DNA from: Morinoia aosen
Taxonomy: Eukaryota; Arthropoda; Malacostraca; Amphipoda; Talitridae
Assembly (NCBI GenBank): GCA_030386875.1
Contig: CM059563.1
Span: 15,580,001 to 15,644,000 of the forward strand
DNA length: 64,000 nt
Direction of reading: 5' to 3'
Shown here: piece after piece, positions 10,944 through 54,603 of the stretch
Layout: every line of letters starts with the position of its first letter
Position numbering within the stretch: the first letter of the stretch is position 1
Notes under the pieces: generated by a model
Seen by the model: only the letters and a program-made list of their open reading frames with translations
What the model was told of the DNA's origin: nothing
Databases searched by the model: none
Position numbers and translations under genes: made by a program

Positions 10944-11271
10944 GTTTATTAGTTTATTAGTTAGTTTAAGCCTCCCTATCCTCAACAATGAGATGTAAAG
11001 AGAGGAAGGAAGAAGGCACCATTTAGTATGGAGTTAAGGGAACGTGGAATCTGTGCAGAAAGGGCACAGAAACAGAAAGCTAAGAAAGAAGTTCATGAAA
11101 CAAGAAAAAGTTGAAGAAGAAAGTAGTAGGCGGTGAAAAACAGGACAGCAGTGAACCGAAAAAAGATGGTCCGTAACAAAACAAAAACCTATTCTATTTT
11201 AACAAAAGAATGTCTACCTAACCTTTAGCTCGGGCCCTCACATTGTCCCCCTGGGAGCGCTAGTTCCCATA
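10944..11271 (-). mobile_element. Short retroposon family A, copy 1, with 13-bp target duplication
   Basis: A 328-bp element flanked by perfect direct repeats AGATAATAAACGA (10931-10943 and 11272-11284). Body as in copy 3 (47238-47606); its lower-coordinate end carries TTATTAG repeats, a likely retroposon tail read on the minus strand. Slightly shorter at the other end than copy 3, as expected for 5' truncation in target-primed reverse transcription. The 13-bp duplication points to non-LTR-type retrotransposition. Confidence 0.82.
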
Positions 11272-11284
11272 AGATAATAAACGA

Positions 11285-12740
11285 ATATTATTGTTTATTG
11301 TGAGATGTTTAATTAGTTCCCCATCATTGTCTACGTCTTTGATATAGGCGAATATATATGACTGTACGTTTTACTCATATTCGGATCACATGCACTCACT
11401 AAGACAGTTACGCCTCACTTTTCAATAAGTGAAATGTTATCTTAAGGGCAGGTTCTCTTCCGAGCAAACTCCCCGTGGTCGACTTCTACCCTAACACAGC
11501 AAATATGCACCTGACCTTTAATGCACTCTATAATCAGAACACGACGCAATCGCCACCAAAACAGACTCTGCACACCTTATCAGAGAAATGCACGCGGATC
11601 TTAGCTTCTTGAAGTAATTGAACCCCTGCATCAGCTCTATTTAACCAAGTTGTATCCGTCAAAATGTAATTGTTCATCTAGCTGGTTTATTTTGAGCCCT
11701 AGGACTACTTCTATTGGCATTCTTGCCTTCGTTATTTCTGTGTAGGTGAATCATTTCTAGGTCAATGTGTTCGAGTAGTAAATTTTACAAAACTTCCTCA
11801 GTTTTTTAAGTCCATCAGTATCGGAATAGCTCTGTAGGATTTTATCATGAATTGTCATCATTGGTCACATTGCTGCGCCGAATCTTCCAGACTAGAGATT
11901 AAAGGTGCCACTGACTAACATCACACCACGAGATTTCTCATTTATCGTAGTCAGGTGCCAAACTGTTGAGAATCTTTTCTCAAAGTAAAATCATAGTCGT
12001 AACATTACAGATAAACTCATAAGATACCGTAAGACTAAGTGTCTGTGAGTGACTACACAGCGCCTGGCTTGAGGGGTGCGTTTGCATAAAAAAGATGCAA
12101 TGAGAAACGGAATGACTTCCGGCAGCCTTTTTACCCAAAAAACGTTTTTTTTACGGACTTCTCATACGAAAGCTAAGCTAACGTACGCCCTCATATGCTG
12201 TGATAACGCGCATCCCATACCTTGCGTTAGAATTACGCAGTTATCTAACTTATTCATTAATATTATTGAGGCATAAAGCCTCAGTAGGACAAATTCAAAG
12301 AGTATATCACCTAGAAATTGTTCTTGAATACAATTATCATTCACTTTGGATTTAGTGCAGCCATGATTCACAATTCATCATTTTACTAACGAGGTAATGA
12401 GTTCCCCACATTTTACAGTTTTCGGTCAAGGTCACTATCCATGTAACTCTCTAAACAAACGTGAAGCATAACATGCTCACTTATAAATCACTGACATCAA
12501 AACCTCAAATAAAATATTTGCCCATGACTTGCCTCAAATCTGGACTAATATTGGTAAAATATTTCTGCTCCTATAAACATGGTATGTACGTATATTTGTC
12601 ATTCGGAAATCCTCTTATCTCTCTTTCTTTTTTTTCTTTTCTTTCACGCATATTAGGCATTTACTTTATTTCAATATTTTGTATCTTTTCAAGCAACTGA
12701 ACACGTAACAAACACCGTGACCACTCAAGATTTGCCCAGT
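11285..12740. other. Non-coding stretch
   Basis: No gene or clear structure; a pyrimidine-rich tract lies near 12618-12648. Confidence 0.5.
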
Positions 12741-14100
12741 TGAATTGAACAGCGTTGGTGCGCACACTATTGAATTGAACCCGTTTGGTGTACACACTAT
12801 TGAATTGAACCCGTTTGGTGTACACACTATTGAATTGAACCCGTTTGGTGTGCACACTATTGAATTGAACACGTTTGGTGTACACACAATTGAATTGAAC
12901 ACGTTTTGTGTACACACAATTGAATTGAACACGTTTTGTGTACACACAATTGAATTGAACACGTTTGGTGCACACACTATTGAATTGAACACGTTTGGTG
13001 TACACACAATTGAATTGAACCCGTTTGGTGTACACACTATTGAATTGAACCCGTTTGGTGTGCACACTATTGAATTGAACACGTTTTGTGTACACACAAT
13101 TGAATTGAACCCGTTTGGTGTACACACTATTGAATTGAACCCGTTTGGTGTACACACTATTGAATTGAACACGTTTGGTGTACGCACTATTGAATTGAAC
13201 CCGTTTGGTGTACACACTATTGAATTGAACACGTTTTGTGTACACACAATTGAATTGAACCCGTTTGGTGTACACACAATTGAATTGAACCCGTTTGGTG
13301 TACACACTATTGAATTGAACACATTTGGTGTACACACTATTGAATTGAACCCGTTTGGTGTACACACTATTGAATTGAACACATTTGGTGTACACACAAT
13401 TGAATTGAACCCGTTTGGTGTACACACTATTGAATTGAACACATTTGGTGTACACACAATTGAATTGAAGCCGTTTGGTGTACACACTATTGAATTGAAC
13501 ACATTTGGTGTACACACAATTGAATTGAACACATTTGGTGTACACACAATTGAATTGAACACATTTGGTGTACACACAATTGAATTGAACACATTTGGTG
13601 TACACACAATTGAATTGAACACATTTGGTGTACACACAATTGAATTGAACCCGTTTGGTGTACACACAATTGAATTGAACACATTTGGTGTACACACAAT
13701 TGAATTGAACACATTTGGTGTACACACAATTGAATTGAACCCGTTTGGTGTACACACTATTGAATTGAACACATTTGGTGTACACACAATTGAATTGAAC
13801 ACATTTGGTGTACACACAATTGAATTGAACCCGTTTGGTGTACACACTATTGAATTGAACCCGTTTGGTGTACACACAATTGAATTGAACACATTTGGTG
13901 TACACACAATTGAATTGAACACGTTTGGTGTACACACTATTGAACTGAACACATTTGGTGTACACACAATTGAATTGAACCCGTTTGGTGTACACACAAT
14001 TGAATTGAACACATTTGGTGTACACACAATTGAATTGAACACGTTTGGTGTACACACTATTGAACTGAACACATCTGGTGCACACACAATTGAATTGTAC
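12741..14100. repeat. 30-bp minisatellite, about 45 copies
   Basis: Unit TTGAATTGAACCCGTTTGGT followed by GTACACACTA, with variants ACGTTTGG, ACATTTGG, ACGTTTTG and CACACAATTG. The unit contains palindromes GTGTACAC and, in many copies, CAATTG. The length is a multiple of three and three reading frames lack stops, so frames of 465-481 codons exist on both strands with a 10-residue period (for example HTIELNPFGV on +). No promoter, signal or non-repeat flank supports a gene. Confidence 0.97.
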
Positions 14101-25540: not shown

Positions 25541-26380
25541 TGATGATGTTAGTTATTGTCCTCCCAGGAATTAATATCTTATTGGAGAGTTAAGTGTTTT
25601 TGAAGCTAGTTTGGATGAAGGTTAAGTTAAATTACAAGTTAGTTTACGGCTCCTTAGCTGCGACAAAGGTGTTCCAAGATGAGTAAGGAACAAGGCTATA
25701 TGTCGTATGGGGTTAAGAGAATGGGGTATTTAATGGGGTACATGGTTGTTCGCACACAAAATCTCTAGCGCATAGAAACAGCAAGTAAAAGTGAAAGTTT
25801 ATGAAACAAGATAAAGGTTGAAGAAGAAAGTAATAGGTATTGAAAAACAGAACAGTAGTGAACCGAAAAAAGATGGTCCTCAACAAAACAAAAAAATGAT
25901 TCTGTTTCAACAAAATAGAAGGCCGTATGCCAAACCCGCTGCTTGGGATCTCACATCGTCCTCGTGAAAGTGCTAATTCCCATAAATACAATAGCTGTAT
26001 CACCCTAAGTTATCAAGTTACTTTTCACATTTAGTTCATTGGTCGTAAAAGATCATTTTGATTGTGTGAGCAATTTTTTATAGAAAATTACTTTCTCAAC
26101 ATGATATAACTGAAATGTGTTTGGATGAAGTTAGTTATTGTGCATAGAGGAATTATTTTCTCACCAGAAAGTGAGTTAGTGAGGTTGGATGTTACAGTTA
26201 TTTCTAATGAAGTTAATTATTGCAATTTTGAGAATAATTTTTACTCTGAAGTGACTTGCTGAAGTTAGGTTGGTTGGATGAAGCCATTGGTTTTGTTCTG
26301 GGAAAATTTCTTTTTAAGGTGAAATTAGTTCATGAAGTTAGTTATTTTCTATTTTCAATGGATTTATTTGTCGTCCACTA
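25541..26380. repeat. Degenerate tandem array interrupted by a retroposon
   Basis: Units of about 55-85 bp containing GGATGAAGTTAGTTATTG, AGGAATTATTTT and GTGAGTTAGTGAAG. One or two units lie at 25541-25635 and three or four at 26115-26380; family A copy 2 separates them. Confidence 0.6.
25636..26000 (-). mobile_element. Short retroposon family A, copy 2 (most diverged)
   Basis: Matches copies 1 and 3 along its length (TTTATGAAACAAGATAAAGG, GTGAACCGAAAAAAGATGG, TGCTAATTCCCATA and a TACAATAGCTGTATC end). A short direct repeat TAAGTTA may be the remains of its target duplication. It sits inside the older degenerate tandem array. Confidence 0.7.
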
Positions 26381-38258: not shown

Positions 38259-38490
38259 CGTTGCCATCGACTCAATCTAGCCCGTTGCCACTAACTCAGT
38301 GGTGCGCGCTGCCACCGACTCAGCGGTGCGCGTTGCCACCGACTCAGCGATGCGCGTTGCCATCGACTCAGCGGTGCGCGTTGCCACCGACTCAGCGGTG
38401 CGCGTTGCCACCGACTCAGCGATGCGCGTTGCCACCGACTCAGCGGTGCGCGTTGCCACCGACTCAGCGGTGCGCGTTGCCACACAGCCC
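38259..38490. repeat. 24-bp GC-rich minisatellite, about 9 units
   Basis: Unit built on GTTGCCACCGACTCAGCGGT plus GCGC, present from about 38259 to 38490 with the first units diverged. GATGCGC replaces GGTGCGC in two units 72 bp apart. Because 24 is divisible by three and the unit has few stops, frames stay open on both strands through it. No sign of a real gene. It lies inside intron 1. Confidence 0.93.
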
Positions 38491-38586
38491 GCGGTCCCAC
38501 AATCCCTCATAAGCCGAGGTCGCCGTAATGAAGTTAACGCTAAATTATCGGAGCGCCGCAGCAGCCCTCCGGAGCGGAGAGAAAAT

Positions 38587-38843
38587 GTACGGCCGTATAG
38601 CGGCACTTCACGGCCGTATAGCGGAACAACACGGCCACACAGCGGCACAACACGGCCACACAGTGGCACAACACGGCCACACAGCGGCACAACACGGCCA
38701 CACAGCGGCACAACACGGCCACACAGCGGCACAACACGGCCACACAGTGGCACAACACGGCCACACAGTGGCACAACACGGCCACACAGCGGCACAACAC
38801 GGCCACACAGCGGCACAACACGGTCACACAGAGGCAAAGAAGT
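38587..38843. repeat. 21-bp GC-rich minisatellite, about 12 units
   Basis: Unit built on CACGGCCACACAGCGGCACA plus A. The first two units carry CGTATAG in place of CACACAG; later units alternate AGCGG and AGTGG. It starts about 100 bp after the 24-bp array. The unit length is a multiple of three, so several frames on both strands are open across it; these are repeat artefacts. Confidence 0.94.
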
Positions 38844-39852: not shown

Positions 39853-42800
39853 CAACATGAGAGAGTAACTGATGGTAACATGAAAGAGTAACTGACGGTA
39901 ACATGAGTGAGTAACTGATGGTAACATGAGAGAGTAACTGAGGGTATCATGAGAGAGTAACTGATGGTAACATGAGAGAGTAACTGATGGTAACATGAGA
40001 GAGTAACTGATGGTAACATGAGAGAGTAACTGAGGGTATCATGAGAGAGTAACTGAGGGTATCATGAGAGAGTAACTGATGGTAGCATGGGAGAGTAACT
40101 GATGGTAACATGAGAGAGTAACTGATGGTAACACGAGAGAGTAACTGATGGTAACATGAGAGAGTAACTGATGGTAACATGAGAGAGTAACTGATGGTAA
40201 CATGAGAGAGTAACTGAGGGTATCATGAGAGAGTAACTGAGGGTATCATGAGAGAGTAACTGATGGTAACATGAGAGAGTAACTGAGGGTATCATGAGAG
40301 AGTAACTGATGGTAACATGAGAGAGTAACTGAGGGTATCATGAGAGAGTAACTGAGGGTATCATGAGAGAGTAACTGATGGTAACATGAGAGAGCAACTG
40401 ATGGTATCATGAGAGAGTAACTGATGGTAACATGAGAGAGTAACTGAGGGTATCATGAGAGAGTAACTGATGGTAACATGAGAGAGTAACTGAGGGTATC
40501 ATGAGAGAGTAACTGATGGTAACATGAGAGAGTAACTGAGGGTATCATGAGAGAGTAACTGATGGTATCATGAGAGAGTAACTGATGGTAACATGAAAGA
40601 GTAACTGATGGTAACATGAGAGAGTAACTGATGGTAACATGAGAGAGTAACTGATGGTATCATGAGAGAGTAACTGATGGTATCATGAGAGAGTAACTGA
40701 TGGTAACATGAGAGAGTAACTGATGGTAACATGAGAGAGTAACTGATGGTAACATGAGAGAGTAACTGAGGGTATCATGAGAGAGTAACTGAGGGTATCA
40801 TGAGAGAGTAACTGATGGTAACATGAGAGAGTAACTGAGGGTATCATGAGAGAGTAACTGATGGTAACATGAGAGAGTAACTGAGGGTATCATGAGAGAG
40901 TAACTGAGGGTATCATGAGAGAGTAACTGATGGTAACATGAGAGAGTAACTGATGGTAACATGAGAGAGTAACTGAGGGTATCATGAGAGAGTAACTGAT
41001 GGTATCATGAGAGAGTAACTGATGGTAACATGAGAGAGTAACTGATGGTAACATGAGAGAGTAACTGATGGTAACATGAGAGAGTAACTGAGGGTATCAT
41101 GAGAGAGTAACTGAGGGTATCATGAGAGAGTAACTGATGGTAACATGAGAGAGTAACTGAGGGTATCATGAGAGAGTAACTGATGGTAACATGAGAGAGT
41201 AACTGAGGGTATCATGAGAGAGTAACTGAGGGTATCATGAGAGAGTAACTGATGGTAACATGAGAGAGTAACTGATGGTAACATGAGAGAGTAACTGAGG
41301 GTATCATGAGAGAGTAACTGATGGTATCATGAGAGAGTAACTGATGGTAACATGAAAGAGTAACTGACGGTAACATGAGAGAGTAACTGATGGTAACATG
41401 AGAGAGTAACTGATGGTAACATGAGAGAGTAACTGATGGTAACATGAAAGAGTAACTGACGGTAACATGAGAGAGTAACTGATGGTAACATGAGAGAGTA
41501 ACTGATGGTAACATGAGAGAGTAACTGATGGTAACATGAGAGAGTAACTGATGGTAACATGAGAGAGTAACTGATGGTAACATGAAAGAGTAACTGACGG
41601 TAACATGAGAGAGTAACTGATGGTAACATGAGAGAGTAACTGATGGTAACATGAGAGAGTAACTGATGGTAACATGAGAGAGTAACTGATGGTAACATGA
41701 GAGAGTAACTGAGGGTATCATGAGAGAGTAACTGATGGTAACATGAGAGAGTAACTGATGGTAACATGAGAGAGTAACTGATGGTAACATGAGAGAGTAA
41801 CTGAGGGTATCATGAGAGAGTAACTGAGGGTATCATGAGAGAGTAACTGATGGTAACATGAGAGAGTAACTGATGGTAACATGAGAGAGTAACTGATGGT
41901 AACATGAGAGAGTAACTGATGGTAACATGAGAGAGTAACTGAGGGTATCATGAGAGAGTAACTGATGGTAACATGAGAGAGTAACTGATGGTAACATGAG
42001 AGAGTAACTGATGGTAACATGAGAGAGTAACTGATGGTAACACGAGAGAGTAACTGATGGTAGCATGGGAGAGTAACTGATGGTAACATGAGAGAGTAAC
42101 TGATGGTAACACGAGAGAGTAACTGATGGTAACATGAGAGAGTAACTGATGGTAACATGAGAGAGTAACTGATGGTAACATGAGAGAGTAACTGAGGGTA
42201 TCATGAGAGAGTAACTGAGGGTATCATGAGAGAGTAACTGATGGTAACATGAGAGAGTAACTGATGGTAACATGAGAGAGTAACTGAGGGTATCATGAGA
42301 GAGTAACTGATGGTAACATGAGAGAGCAACTGAGGGTATCATGAGAGAGTAACTGATGGTAACATGAGAGAGTAACTGATGGTAACATGAGAGAGTAACT
42401 GATGGTAACACGAGAGAGTAACTGATGGTAACATGAGAGAGTAACTGATGGTAACATGAGAGAGTAACTGATGGTAACATGAGAGAGTAACTGATGGTAA
42501 CATGATAGAGTAACTGATGGTAACATGAGAGAGTAACTGATGGTAACATGAGAGAGTAACTGATGGTAACATGAGAGAGTAACTGAGGGTAACATGAGAG
42601 AGTAACTGATGGTAACATGAGAGAGTAACTGATGGTAACATGAGAGAGTAACTGAGGGTAACATGAGAGAGCAACTGAGGGTAACATGAGAGAGTAACTG
42701 ATGGTAACATGAGAGAGTAACTGATGGTAACATGAGAGAGTAACTGATGGTAACATGAGAGAGTAACTGATGGTAACATGAGAGAGTAACTGATGGTAAC

Positions 42801-43270
42801 ATGAGAGAGTAACTGAGGGTATCATGAGAGAGTAACTGATGGTAACATGAGAGAGTAACTGATGGTAACATGAGAGAGTAACTGATGGTAACATGAGAGA
42901 GTAACTGAGGGTATCATGAGAGAGTAACTGATGGTAACATGAGAGAGTAACTGATGGTAACATGAGAGAGTAACTGATGGTAACATGAGAGAGTAACTGA
43001 TGGTAACATGAGAGAGTAACTGAGGGTATCATGAGAGAGTAACTGATGGTAACATGAGAGAGTAACTGAGGGTAACATGAGAGAGTAACTGATGGTGACA
43101 TGAGAGAGTAACTGATGGTGACATGAGAGAGCAACTGATGGTAACATGAGAGAGTAACTGATGGTGACATGAGAGAGCAACTGATGGTAACATGAGAGAG
43201 TAACTGATGGTAGCATGGGAGAGTAACTGATGGTAACATGAGAGAGTAACTGATGGTAGCATGGGAGAGT
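39853..43270. repeat. 3.4-kb minisatellite of a 23-bp unit, about 149 copies
   Basis: Unit CATGAGAGAGTAACTGATGG plus TAA. Main variants end CTGATGGTAAC, CTGAGGGTATC or CTGATGGTATC; a rare form has GAAAGAG with CTGACGG. On the minus strand the unit has no stop in any phase, so frames of up to 468 codons arise with a 23-residue period; these are artefacts. Each unit contains GAGAGAG and TAACTG. A 14-unit (322-bp) higher-order repeat is visible from about 40741. The array lies within intron 1 of the Vsx-like gene. Confidence 0.97.
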
Positions 43271-47237: not shown

Positions 47238-47606
47238 GATTTTATTAGATGAGATTATATAGTTAGTTTCAGCATCCCTAATCGCTTAAAAAAGAGCATA
47301 TCGAAGAGAAGAAGGAGGAAGGCACCATTTAGTATGGGATAAGGGAATGCGGAATCTATGCAGCAGGGCATATATGAACAGTAAGTTGAGAAAGAAGATC
47401 ATGAAACAAGATAAAAGTTAAAGATGATAGTTACAGGTCCTGAAAAACAGGACAGCAGGGACCGAAAAAGGTGGTCCTTGACATTACAAAAAAACATTTT
47501 ATTTCAACAAAAAGAGGCCTACCTAACTCTCAGCTCGGGCCCTCACACATTTCCCCTGGGAGTACCAATTCCCATAGATACAATATAGTTGTATCCCCCT
47601 TAGGGT
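47238..47606 (-). mobile_element. Short retroposon family A, copy 3 (longest), with 12-bp target duplication
   Basis: A 369-bp element flanked by direct repeats GACAAAAAGATA (47226-47237 and 47607-47618). Its body matches 10944-11271 and about 25636-26000, sharing GGCACCATTTAGTATGG, ATCATGAAACAAG, ACCGAAAAA and GCTCGGGCCCTCACA. Minus orientation is inferred because the lower-coordinate end is rich in TTATTAG-type sequence (TAATAA when reversed), like a retroposon tail. No coding capacity and no clear tRNA-type promoter were seen. SINE-like or a short non-autonomous non-LTR element. Confidence 0.8.
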
Positions 47607-51877: not shown

Positions 51878-51953
51878 GTGACGCGTACAACTACAGGGCA
51901 GGAGCAGCTGCGGTTGCCTGCCGGTCTCGCAGGAAGAAGCGGCGCCGACACAG
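51878..51953 (+). CDS. Vsx: Vsx-like gene, coding exon 2 (basic linker into homeodomain)
   Basis: A 76-bp exon too short to stand out as an open frame. It follows a strong pyrimidine-rich acceptor (TTCTTCCTTCTTTCGGTAG) and ends at CACAG/GTGCGT (GT at 51954). It enters with two bases (GT) that complete the Gly codon opened by exon 1, then gives 24 residues starting DAYNY and ending RRKKRRRH, and leaves with AG, the first two bases of homeodomain Arg5. Basic residues leading into RRHR before TIFTS are typical of Vsx proteins, where this stretch is part of the nuclear localisation signal and the homeodomain N-terminal arm. A possible inner acceptor at 51896 would put the exon in the wrong frame, so 51877 is the better site. 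Confidence 0.85.
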
Positions 51954-54070
51954 GTGCGTGAGGCGAGAAATGGACGGAAAGTAACTAGCTTGTACTCAAT
52001 GAATACCCATTACTTCGTCCTATACTGGATCATAGGATCATACCTTTCTTTTTGTAATGTGTATGCATTGATTATGACCTTTCTAGCTCATGTCTCGCAG
52101 CCTCCCCAAGTGAGTCTGATATAAAATAACGCACTGCTGAACCCGTGAACATTTGGAATAAGAGATTGTTTGGAATGAGTAAGCCGAGCTTGTACTCCAT
52201 GCCAGTGACGAATACTATCAATCTATTCTCTGTCAAGGGGTATGAGGTCATGTAATAAAATTAATACGAAGGTATCATTGCAAATTGTAAAAACACAGTG
52301 TACCCGATATGGGTGTTTTTCGCTTCGTTCTGGGTCATTATTTGTTGCAATTAACTCGCTGTTTGGGAAGCATCTTTCAAATTTCACACGGACCACTTTT
52401 TACGCAAAACCCACCCACATTTTCTTGCGCAAAATTACAGCACATTTCAGCTCGGAGTTGTTAAAATTTAGTCTACAACGTAAAAATGGAAATATTAATA
52501 AATGCAGTAGTCAAGATGAAGCAGCAAATTTGCAGACGATGCTCGTTGACCGACTTTCATACTTTATAAGAATAAAAATTTAAAACATGAATATTTCATT
52601 CAAGTTAAGATACAAGCGAAATAAATTCCGCCAAGAATTGTGAAGCAAAGATTGAGAAAAAAACTTCACTCCGTAATTAACTCACTCCCGCAATAACTCC
52701 ATATTATTTTCTCTGGGTTGGAAAATGAGTCTGCATGCTTTAGCGTTTAAAATATCACATTAACTCCGTTTTGAAAACATTATCGGGATTTAATACTCTA
52801 AGTATCTAAGTATCTATTTTTATCTATACATATTGAAACGTCATTTCAGAGCCTTCTCACTACCATCCAATTGAGGTACGAAGCGCTTACAGACAGATCT
52901 AAAACTCGTCACCGAAGCGGTTATGCACGCGTACCTGTGATACGAGACGAAACTCAGACCAGCAAGTGAGGTAGAGCCAGAATAAAGAAGCAGTCCCTCA
53001 AGTCACCGTCCTGCCCTCGTGGCTGGGCGCAATTGCGCGGCAACTTTAAACAAATGGAGGCCTCGCTGCCGCGTCGTTAGCCACGTCTCCTAATTGAGTT
53101 AGGCAGATGAGCAGCGACGTGACAGTTGCTGCCATGAGCGTTTTTGTCTCTATTGAATTAGAGGGTTTTACTCGCCTCCTTCCCCGCCTGCCGCCATCTC
53201 CAGACATCGCTCAAAGAGGCGTCTAGAGGATGCACAGGCGGCTTGCCAAGCCCGTGCATTATATGTGGCTGGGCTGGAGTGTGTTGTGTGGGTAACGTTC
53301 CTCACGAGCGAAAGATGTGGATCTCAGTAACTAGCTCTGAATTCACATCGCTGAGGTTTATTTTGTAAGGAAAATCTAGACTGCAATTGGCGACAGTATG
53401 TGAAAGGGATGAGATAGGCAAAAGTTCAATAAAAATACGGAAAAAAAGTCTTCGCTAAAACAGCTGAGTTAAATTCCTCCGGATAAACACTAACATTAAA
53501 AGTATTACAATTTTGTTCATCATTTATACACATGCTATAAATTTTAGAAAGCTAGGTTTTCACATTTTTTTTCAGACTAGCAACTTAATTCATGTTTTTT
53601 TTTCAACCGTTCGATATTACGTGAGAACTTTCACACCACTTTTTTAATGATTTCGTTAATTTGCATTTCCGTGCTAATACATAGGCAAATTTATCTACCA
53701 TGTTTCGCTAGCTCCTGTTTACCCAAGTAGTATATTGTAACTTTTTACCTCCAAGTTCTACTCCTGACATTAATTTAATATTTAACTTTTCCATGAAACA
53801 ATAAGAACATCATTTAAGCTTCCGCCATACTCTATTGACTGAATTCAAATGATTTGAGGAGCCCTAAAAGTAATTTTTTCAGTAACAACATGCTGGAATA
53901 GAATTGCTCAATATCATCTTTTCCTTTGCTCAGTCTCCAAATTCAATTAGAACTCTTAAACAATTAGAGTTAACGATAATATTTAATTTTACGAACACAA
54001 ACATCGCTGGAGTGAATTTTTTTAGCATAACCACCTTTCATAAGCTCTTTTTATAAGCTCATAAGCTCCC
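51954..54070 (+). other. Intron 2, up to the 52-bp repeat
   Basis: No exon seen. The word AGCTTGTACTC(A/C)ATG occurs at about 51987 and 52187, and GTCTCGCAG occurs in exon 2 (51924) and again at about 52093, in the same order; this may be a faint local duplication of the exon 2 region. A GC-rich segment lies at 52960-53290. Confidence 0.5.
52960..53290. promoter_or_regulatory. GC-rich segment in intron 2, possible enhancer
   Basis: Raised GC with CTAATTGAG (53090-53098), TGACAGTTG (53120-53128; a TGACAG Meis/Hth-type site overlapping an E-box), TATTGAATTAG and TTTAAACAAATGG. It lies between exons 2 and 3. Motifs are seen directly; regulatory role is inferred. Confidence 0.25.
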
Positions 54071-54336
54071 AAAGGTTCTGTATTATAGTCTTAAAGTTAA
54101 AAGAGAATGCTGATGCACTGCTGCGCAGGGGTTCAGTATCATAGTCTTTTAATAGTGAATGCTTATGCCCAGTTGCACAGGGGTTCAGTATCATGATCTT
54201 TTAATAATGAATGCTTACGCCCGGTTGCACAGGGGTTCAGTATTATAGTGTTTTAATAGTGAATGCTTATACGCTGCTGCACAGGGGTTCAGTATTATAG
54301 TCTTTTAATAGTGAATGCTTATACCCGGCTGCACAG
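54071..54336 (+). repeat. 52-bp tandem repeat ending exactly at the homeobox 3' splice site
   Basis: Four near-identical 52-bp units end in G(C)ACAG at 54180, 54232, 54284 and 54336. A more diverged unit (54071-54128) ends in GCGCAG at 54128. Each unit carries the words GGTTCAGTAT, CTTTTAATA and GAATGCTTA before the terminal CAG/G. The last CAG is the acceptor of the homeobox exon, so the splice-site context has been copied five times within the last 270 bases of intron 2. Confidence 0.93.
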
Positions 54337-54460
54337 GACGATCTTCACATCCTCACAACTACAGGAGCTGGACCGCGCCTTCAAAGACGCCCACTACCCT
54401 GACGTCGGCGCACGGGAGACGCTCTCCCTCAAGCTCGACCTGCCAGAAGACCGCATTCAG
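54337..54460 (+). CDS. Vsx: Vsx-like gene, coding exon 3 (homeobox, residues 6-46)
   Basis: A 124-bp exon that completes Arg5 and codes for homeodomain residues 6-46: TIFTS at the start, then AHYPDV and LPEDRIQ at the end. The core residues Leu16, Phe20, Arg31 and Leu40 are all present. The combination HRTIFTS, AHYPDV, LSLK and DLPEDRIQ is diagnostic of Vsx/Chx10 rather than Unc-4, Otx, Gsc or Dmbx. The acceptor is GCTGCACAG/G (AG at 54335-54336) and the donor is CAG/GTGAGC at 54461, in phase 0 between residues 46 and 47, a classic paired-class intron position. Helix 3, including Gln50, must be in the next exon, which is not in view. Odd features: a 52-bp tandem repeat touches the acceptor, and a decayed copy of the last codons and donor lies at 54565-54603. 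Confidence 0.93.
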
Positions 54461-54564
54461 GTGAGCCGTTATTTTTGTGCTGTTATGGCATATACTACAC
54501 CTGCTCCTACACATTACGAATTTGCGGTGTGTGTGAAATTTAGCTACCAGGAAGCGTGTCGCTG

Positions 54565-54603
54565 CTCTAGCTAGACTTCCCAAAAGACTGTATTCAGGAG
54601 AGC
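54565..54603 (+). pseudogene. Decayed duplicate of the 3' end of the homeobox exon and its donor
   Basis: Aligned without gaps to 54428-54466, 31 of 39 bases match, at an offset of 137 bp. In the exon frame the real sequence ends [10 protein letters not shown], while the copy reads [13 protein letters not shown]. The donor CAG/GTGAGC has become CAGGAGAGC, so it cannot be spliced as a donor. Weaker similarity runs on both sides (GGAAGCGTGT at 54550, GGGAGTGTGA at 54691), which suggests a degenerate repeat of about 140 bp starting inside the exon. It lies in intron 3 and is non-functional as coding sequence. Confidence 0.7.

Follow-up and report, generated by a model that had tools for sequence, protein, structure and literature searches.

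Tandem copies of a splice acceptor in front of a Vsx homeobox exon

The intron in front of the homeobox exon of a Vsx gene, a regulator of eye and nerve, in Morinoia aosen ends in five tandem units, each of which terminates in a CAG/G acceptor of its own (a slash marks the splice boundary or its counterpart in a repeat unit). The array lies in a 64,000-nucleotide stretch of DNA, called the window here (C8:15580001-15644000), of a genome of 1.99 Gb in 29 contigs. The first-pass annotation of the window had claimed that a 52-bp repeat ends at the homeobox acceptor and offers five CAG/G sites, and TRF, alignment and shuffled sequences all bear this out. Judging from the sequence, we consider it likely that this array and others like it are old, length-variable tandem duplications across splice sites, which would be tolerated because the exon-proximal site is used, whereas leakage to the outer sites would give nonsense transcripts. 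The same genome holds two near-identical copies of the locus, one with five units and four poison sites, the other with three units and one open in-frame alternative. These two natural copies allow a direct test of how the spliceosome chooses among modules of branch point and AG, and of how such arrays evolve.

The homeobox exon and its array

TRF reports the 52-bp array at 54097-54337 with 4.6 copies and a score of 342; the top score among 200 dinucleotide shuffles of the intron (51954-54336) was 59. In the alignment, five units span 54073-54336, one of 56 nt followed by four of 52 nt (Table 1). Their CAGs end at 54128, 54180, 54232, 54284 and 54336, and G is the next base in all five cases. 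A candidate sixth unit 5′ of 54073 was rejected, its score being matched by 124 of 500 shuffles. Pairwise comparison of window units 2 to 5 gives 3-10 differences in 52 positions, with four between unit 5 and unit 2 and three between unit 5 and unit 4. Given this divergence, the array seems to be of some age and not newly unstable. The acceptor had been described as itself part of unstable DNA, and the unit number is indeed not fixed (three in the second copy).

Table 1. Features of the Vsx locus in the window (positions in the window; slash, splice boundary or its counterpart).
Feature	Position	Strand	Length (nt)	Description
Upstream Vsx exon	51878..51953	+	76	Acceptor TTTCGGTAG/G; donor CAG/GTGCGT; out in phase 2 after RRKKRRRH+AG
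Intron	51954..54336	+	2383	The array is its 3′ end
Unit 1	54073..54128	+	56	Diverged, 4-nt insertion; ends CGCAG/G; only branch-like motif CTGAT, 15 nt from AG
Unit 2	54129..54180	+	52	Ends CACAG/G; TTAAT at 28 nt, CTTAT at 15 nt
Unit 3	54181..54232	+	52	Ends CACAG/G; TTAAT at 28 nt, CTTAC at 15 nt
Unit 4	54233..54284	+	52	Ends CACAG/G; TTAAT at 28 nt, CTTAT at 15 nt
Unit 5	54285..54336	+	52	Exon-proximal; bears the position-conserved acceptor; 51 nt identical to the last unit of the second copy
Vsx homeobox exon	54337..54460	+	124	Homeodomain residues 6-46; phase 2 in, phase 0 out; donor CAG/GTGAGC
Degenerate copy of the homeobox exon's 3′ end and donor	54565..54603	+		30/39 identical to 54428-54466, spacing 137; donor GT is GA; score reached by 0/500 shuffles

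Joined, the upstream exon and the homeobox exon read DAYNYRAGAAAVACRSRRKKRRRHR^ followed by 41 residues, with ...RRKKRRRHR^ at the junction, and match the Pfam Homeodomain (E = 1.5e-12). Over the 41 residues, 29 are identical in the piece of human VSX2 used for comparison, 27 in that of VSX1, 24 in PHOX2B and 23 in ALX4, which fits a paired-like homeodomain with Vsx-type residues. In its available text, PMC4630895 names c.504-24C>T and c.627+84T>A as variants of human VSX1. From these names, the VSX1 exon (exon 3) would run from c.504 to c.627, that is, over 124 nt in phase 2/phase 0, and the homeobox exon of the window has the same length and phases. The acceptor at 54336 is taken as the position-conserved site for this reason. 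The portions available of two further VSX papers (PMC2994744 and PMC3185030) gave no more exon-boundary coordinates.

The next exon, which we call HD3, is found about 19 kb downstream of the homeobox exon, and 41 residues of it were read. These residues are presumably a Vsx-type continuation and resemble the start of the CVC domain. A second Vsx gene, with a homeobox exon of its own, is located about 126 kb further on. The homeobox exon of this neighbouring gene (L033, 661-680) opens as CAG/TCGGACG, compared to CAG/GACG in the window; it apparently starts one codon further upstream, possibly through a 3-nt shift of the boundary.

The ends of the units suggest how the array may have formed. It begins at an AGG (AAAGG, 54071-54075), its units are joined at CAG/GG, and the last unit leads into CAG/GACG. 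Microhomology at the AGG of the splice junction would be a simple origin, since both the start of the array and the joints of its units fall at this motif. The module duplicated in tandem would be the 3′ end of the intron, consisting of the branch point, a short pyrimidine stretch and CAG/G, and breakpoints at the AGG would turn it into a minisatellite of complete acceptor modules adjoining the homeobox exon. The array might instead derive from a mobile element or satellite that chanced to insert at the exon, and the window does hold many tandem repeats (16 TRF rows, making up 14 arrays), with about 9.8% of the 153 kb sampled lying in arrays. We hold such an insertion to be very unlikely, because the unit stops precisely at the position-conserved acceptor, no further copy of it was found elsewhere in the 64-kb window, and a 390-nt query of array plus exon matched two loci in the 1.99-Gb genome, the window locus and one second copy (the search ignores very common words). 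No Rfam families at the gathering threshold and no tRNA genes were found in the window, and of 26 pattern matches in the search for relatives in viral_contigs none was confirmed.

The upstream acceptors of the window copy

For all four upstream acceptors, regardless of frame, translation from the phase of the upstream exon finds a stop as the fifth codon after the junction. The predicted products read R-G-S-V-S/L-stop, and their stops are TAG 54142, TGA 54194, TAG 54246 and TAG 54298. The earlier view that the last site alone is productive holds for the window copy. The reasoning behind it, that the sites adding 52 or 104 nt shift the frame, was too narrow, as not just the frame-shifting sites but all four run into a stop. 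The site adding 156 nt had been dismissed for a TGA at 54260; this codon is in frame but is preceded by TGA 54194, TAA 54254 and TAG 54257. Because every upstream site meets a stop within five codons, the potential of the array to poison splicing is stronger than the first-pass annotation had stated.

Splice sites were scored with a generic, vertebrate-like matrix that is not fitted to this species. On this matrix the upstream acceptors (decoys) score 4.1-5.2, the exon-proximal site 4.33 and the acceptor of the upstream exon 8.7, and the acceptor of unit 3 outscores the exon-proximal one (5.16 vs 4.33). TTAAT at 28 nt and CTTAT or CTTAC at 15 nt before the AG recur in each of units 2 to 5, unit 5 included. 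Based on these scores and on the branch-like motifs common to units 2 to 5, the last acceptor appears weak and its neighbours its equal.

Such parity would suit a set of regulated poison acceptors, in which the modules compete and the number of repeats determines what proportion of transcripts is nonsense, and hence the dose of Vsx. The decoys equal the exon-proximal site in score, units 2 to 4 equal it in branch motifs, and all four decoys lead to a stop within five codons. A known splice-site VNTR, in human ABCA7, behaves in part as this proposal would have it: a retained unit shifts the frame to a premature stop, unit-retention transcripts occur, and repeat length correlates with skipping of exon 19 (available text of PMC5954066). 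In that same gene, however, unit retention did not vary with length (PMC5954066, same text). Furthermore, the decoy signals bear no sign of selection, the CAG/G and TTAAT kept in units 2 to 5 being within chance (p = 0.12), and the RNA structure of the array is no stronger than that of shuffles (z = -0.79). Together with the weaker decoys of the second copy, described below, these observations make regulated poisoning rather unlikely.

Other ways in which the array might act were tried and rejected. RNA hairpins that would hide the decoys find no favour, as 37 of 200 shuffles fold equally well. Donors for micro-exons within the array score -1.9 or less on the generic matrix at all 21 GTs from 54075 to 54311, compared to 6.6 and 8.2 for the two real donors, of which 6.6 belongs to the upstream exon. 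A recursive (ratchet) splice site is likewise dismissed, since the CAG is followed by GGGTTC, with no working donor GT adjoining the AG.

The reading that we prefer is tolerance of the duplicated acceptors. We infer the use of any acceptor, upstream or last, from the sequence. The exon-proximal acceptor would yield the normal mRNA, since it is nearest to the exon and its donor and is the sole stop-free, frame-keeping site of the window copy. Exon definition would favour the last acceptor module. The upstream sites would be decoys, and leakage to them would produce transcripts with a stop five codons past the junction, which are likely to be removed by nonsense-mediated decay. Splicing to the exon-proximal copy would keep the protein unchanged and leave the outer copies free to drift. 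Duplications of a splice site could persist in this manner because they would be near-neutral while the exon-proximal copy works.

A near-identical locus at a distance of 1.40 Mb

The second match to array plus exon is at C8:14230276-14230556, 1.40 Mb from the window locus and on the same assembled contig. It has three units, of 56, 52 and 51 nt, compared to the five of the window. The two loci are collinear across the 83.8 kb compared (the window plus 19.8 kb). Of 41 bins of 2 kb, 34 show 96.6-100% identity and 7 show 81-95.5%, where identity is that of the best local match per bin and some bins are aligned in part. Test stretches at 15.50, 15.70 and 16.00 Mb, compared with the second copy, gave 99.9-100%, 98.7-99.3% and 99.7% identity, respectively; for the test stretch at 15.00 Mb, just repeats of about 350 bp were matched within 29.7 kb around the expected partner. 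A segmental duplication of a single age would explain this mosaic of identities less readily than two haplotypes placed side by side; the assembly has probably kept both haplotypes, of which the second copy is one.

Window unit 1 and the outermost unit of the second copy have the 4-nt insertion in common and disagree at 7 of 56 positions. At the exon end, the last unit of the second copy has lost one base and is otherwise identical to window unit 5 (51 nt). Between the copies, 2 of the 124 bases of the homeobox exon are changed, and the encoded protein is the same. An assembly artefact, by which the unit number would be wrong in one or both copies, has to be weighed here, as tandem arrays are prone to misassembly and the second copy is probably an uncollapsed haplotype. 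The 3-10 differences in 52 positions among window units 2 to 5, however, and the private changes of each copy argue that the arrays are not simply duplicated or collapsed reads. There is accordingly very little likelihood, in our estimate, that the unit numbers are mistaken.

Because the last unit of the second copy lost one base, the next upstream acceptor adds 51 nt in frame and without a stop, which would place 17 residues at homeodomain position 5/6. The unit could in principle be a source of isoforms, giving a longer Vsx with 17 extra residues between homeodomain residues 5 and 6, as the joined frame is open through the homeobox exon. A stretch of 51 nt is open by chance in about 44% of cases, though; the site scores 2.42 vs 4.33 on the vertebrate-like matrix and has a competing CAG 5 nt upstream; and the insertion would, on general grounds, disturb the N-terminal arm of the homeodomain. 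An isoform function is for these reasons extremely improbable.

The second copy bears on the poison acceptors in two ways. The difference in unit number between the copies is what a variable regulator of dose would show, but the decoys of the second copy score 0.5-2.6, below its exon-proximal acceptor (same matrix). A broader proposal is that homeobox acceptor arrays, whose length varies between haplotypes, set the fraction of Vsx transcripts that are nonsense or bear an insertion, and so form a heritable dial on a developmental regulator; on the present sequences we regard this as quite unlikely.

The exon-proximal units of the two copies show 0 differences in 51 positions, and the outermost units 7 in 56 (Fisher p = 0.013). 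At the divergence between the copies downstream of the exon (44/1996), 0/51 has a probability of 0.32, and at the divergence upstream (114/2150) a probability of 0.06. The intron just before the array is strongly diverged between the copies, with 48/278 and 28/299 differences in two bins of 300 columns, so that the 7/56 of the outermost unit is not unusual. An identical last unit next to a diverged outermost one is therefore no more than suggestive of constraint on the last unit.

Arrays at other exons and known repeats at splice sites

Acceptor-bearing arrays recur at the HD3 exons of both Vsx genes. In the window gene, the HD3 exon ends a 130-bp array whose copies number 3 in each block at the threshold applied; in the neighbouring gene, the array is of 131 bp, with 4 copies in one block and at least 12 in the other. 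These counts include the exon's own copy, and the 12-copy array (L030) runs off the stretch read. The units consist of the acceptor and the head of the exon, and all 17 of the upstream CAG acceptors listed lead to a stop after 1, 16 or 22 residues. On the vertebrate-like matrix, the exon-proximal acceptor is the best in all four HD3 stretches (4.7-4.9 vs 1.8-3.0), and it has the top score across the HD3 arrays and the second copy taken together (4.3-4.9 vs 0.5-3.0). Drift of the outer copies fits the weaker outer acceptors in the second copy and the HD3 arrays, and it fits the differences in length. The undiminished scores of the window decoys are unexplained by drift, and would be odd if decoys were harmful and long-standing; these decoys may be younger expansions of sequence like that of unit 5.

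In the second block of the neighbouring gene (L030, 1-1550), as compared with L028, three upstream copies still encode the 16-residue end of the homeodomain without what follows it.

Eleven of 12 further homeobox places in the genome were taken for comparison (C8:5937607 was left out). Arrays or duplicates reach the acceptor at three of these 11 exons (L037, 87 bp; L041, 16/30 bp; L042, 97 bp), and were not found at the remaining eight, nor at the homeobox exon of the neighbouring Vsx gene. At 5 of the 11 loci, the homeodomain frame is open for 47-73 residues upstream and the acceptor may be outside the stretch; they are counted as misses. On the donor side of 12 homeobox stretches, tandem copies are clear in two (L046, L049), weak in one (L052) and absent from nine, where the donor of L049 is not at the expected place and the exon of L048, one of the nine, seems to read on with no donor. 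No clear duplicates were seen at the acceptor or donor of the upstream Vsx exon or at the donors of the HD3 exons.

Myosin exons served as the comparison, 20 of 79 matches being used. Of the 20 acceptors none touched a TRF array, and of the 20 donors one did; in the similarity test, 2 of 20 passed on each side, with matches of 18-25 nt. Acceptor arrays are more frequent at homeobox than at myosin exons (6/15 vs 0/20, p = 0.003), but the excess weakens without the two related HD3 arrays (4/13, p = 0.017) and further without the window exon as well (3/12, p = 0.044). Set against the 9.8% of sampled sequence in arrays, the last of these proportions gives p = 0.11. Because so much of the sampled sequence lies in arrays, an excess at homeobox exons beyond the Vsx pair is suggestive at most. 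The myosin exons lend no support to an excess of acceptor arrays across the genome, and the absence of TRF arrays from all 20 myosin acceptors argues that the duplication process is not uniform over genes. The recurrence at HD3 of both Vsx genes and at a few homeobox exons fits a recurrent mutational process and not a purpose-built switch; since two homeobox exons of one gene pair are involved, duplicating a splice site in tandem would seem to be a mutation that happens repeatedly here and is tolerated.

One myosin locus, on the minus strand of C1 (35644596-35648320), has six consecutive matches to one myosin-head segment. Such a run would be expected of mutually exclusive muscle-myosin exons of the arthropod kind.

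The Vsx array can be regarded as a counterpart, on the acceptor side, of the donor VNTR of ABCA7, and the gene in which it lies is a conserved developmental regulator. The ABCA7 repeat, in intron 18, includes the splice donor, has a 25-bp unit and up to about 427 units in humans, and comes with RNA and disease data (PMC5954066, available text). In both cases each unit includes a splice site; the ABCA7 repeat varies in length, and the two near-identical Vsx copies, probably haplotypes, have five and three units. Unlike the ABCA7 repeat, the Vsx array is on the acceptor side, has a 52-bp unit, adjoins a homeobox exon and is known from sequence. In human duplicated genes, internal tandem repeats at exon-intron boundaries alter the gene structure between paralogous copies, through novel introns and retained exonic repeats, in contrast to the intact acceptor modules upstream of a conserved acceptor in Vsx (PMC2812944, available text). 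In dwarf German shepherds, loss of one unit of a 7-bp repeat in intron 5 of LHX3 disturbs splicing. That repeat, like the Vsx array, is intronic, tandem and next to homeodomain-coding exons of a developmental regulator; it is without a splice site, and the authors invoke a minimum distance from donor to branch point, whereas the Vsx units carry acceptors (PMC3223203, available text). NAGNAG tandem acceptors also place several acceptors before one exon, but these are 3 nt apart and share one branch point, whereas the Vsx acceptors are 52 nt apart with a branch-point candidate each; the spacing and the branch-like motif per unit rule out this class. PMC8912139 was set aside as a parallel, its repeat, as far as the available text goes, being in an intron without a splice site. 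Among the papers listed for the terms searched, including the one that combines Vsx with tandem repeat, no title or abstract opening describes a repeated acceptor module at a Vsx exon.

The window has further repeats. A 23-bp array (39854-43270), strongly GC-skewed and with about 149 units, has a counterpart of about 1.4 kb in the second copy, and a 30-bp array of 45 units that is open in several frames (12740-14097) has one of about 1.1 kb. Adjoining GC-rich arrays of 24 and 21 bp (38259-38836) fall within open frames of 190-194 codons on both strands. A dispersed family with members about 76-79% identical and in one orientation (10948-11276, 25767-25985 and 47249-47580) is possibly a transposable element.
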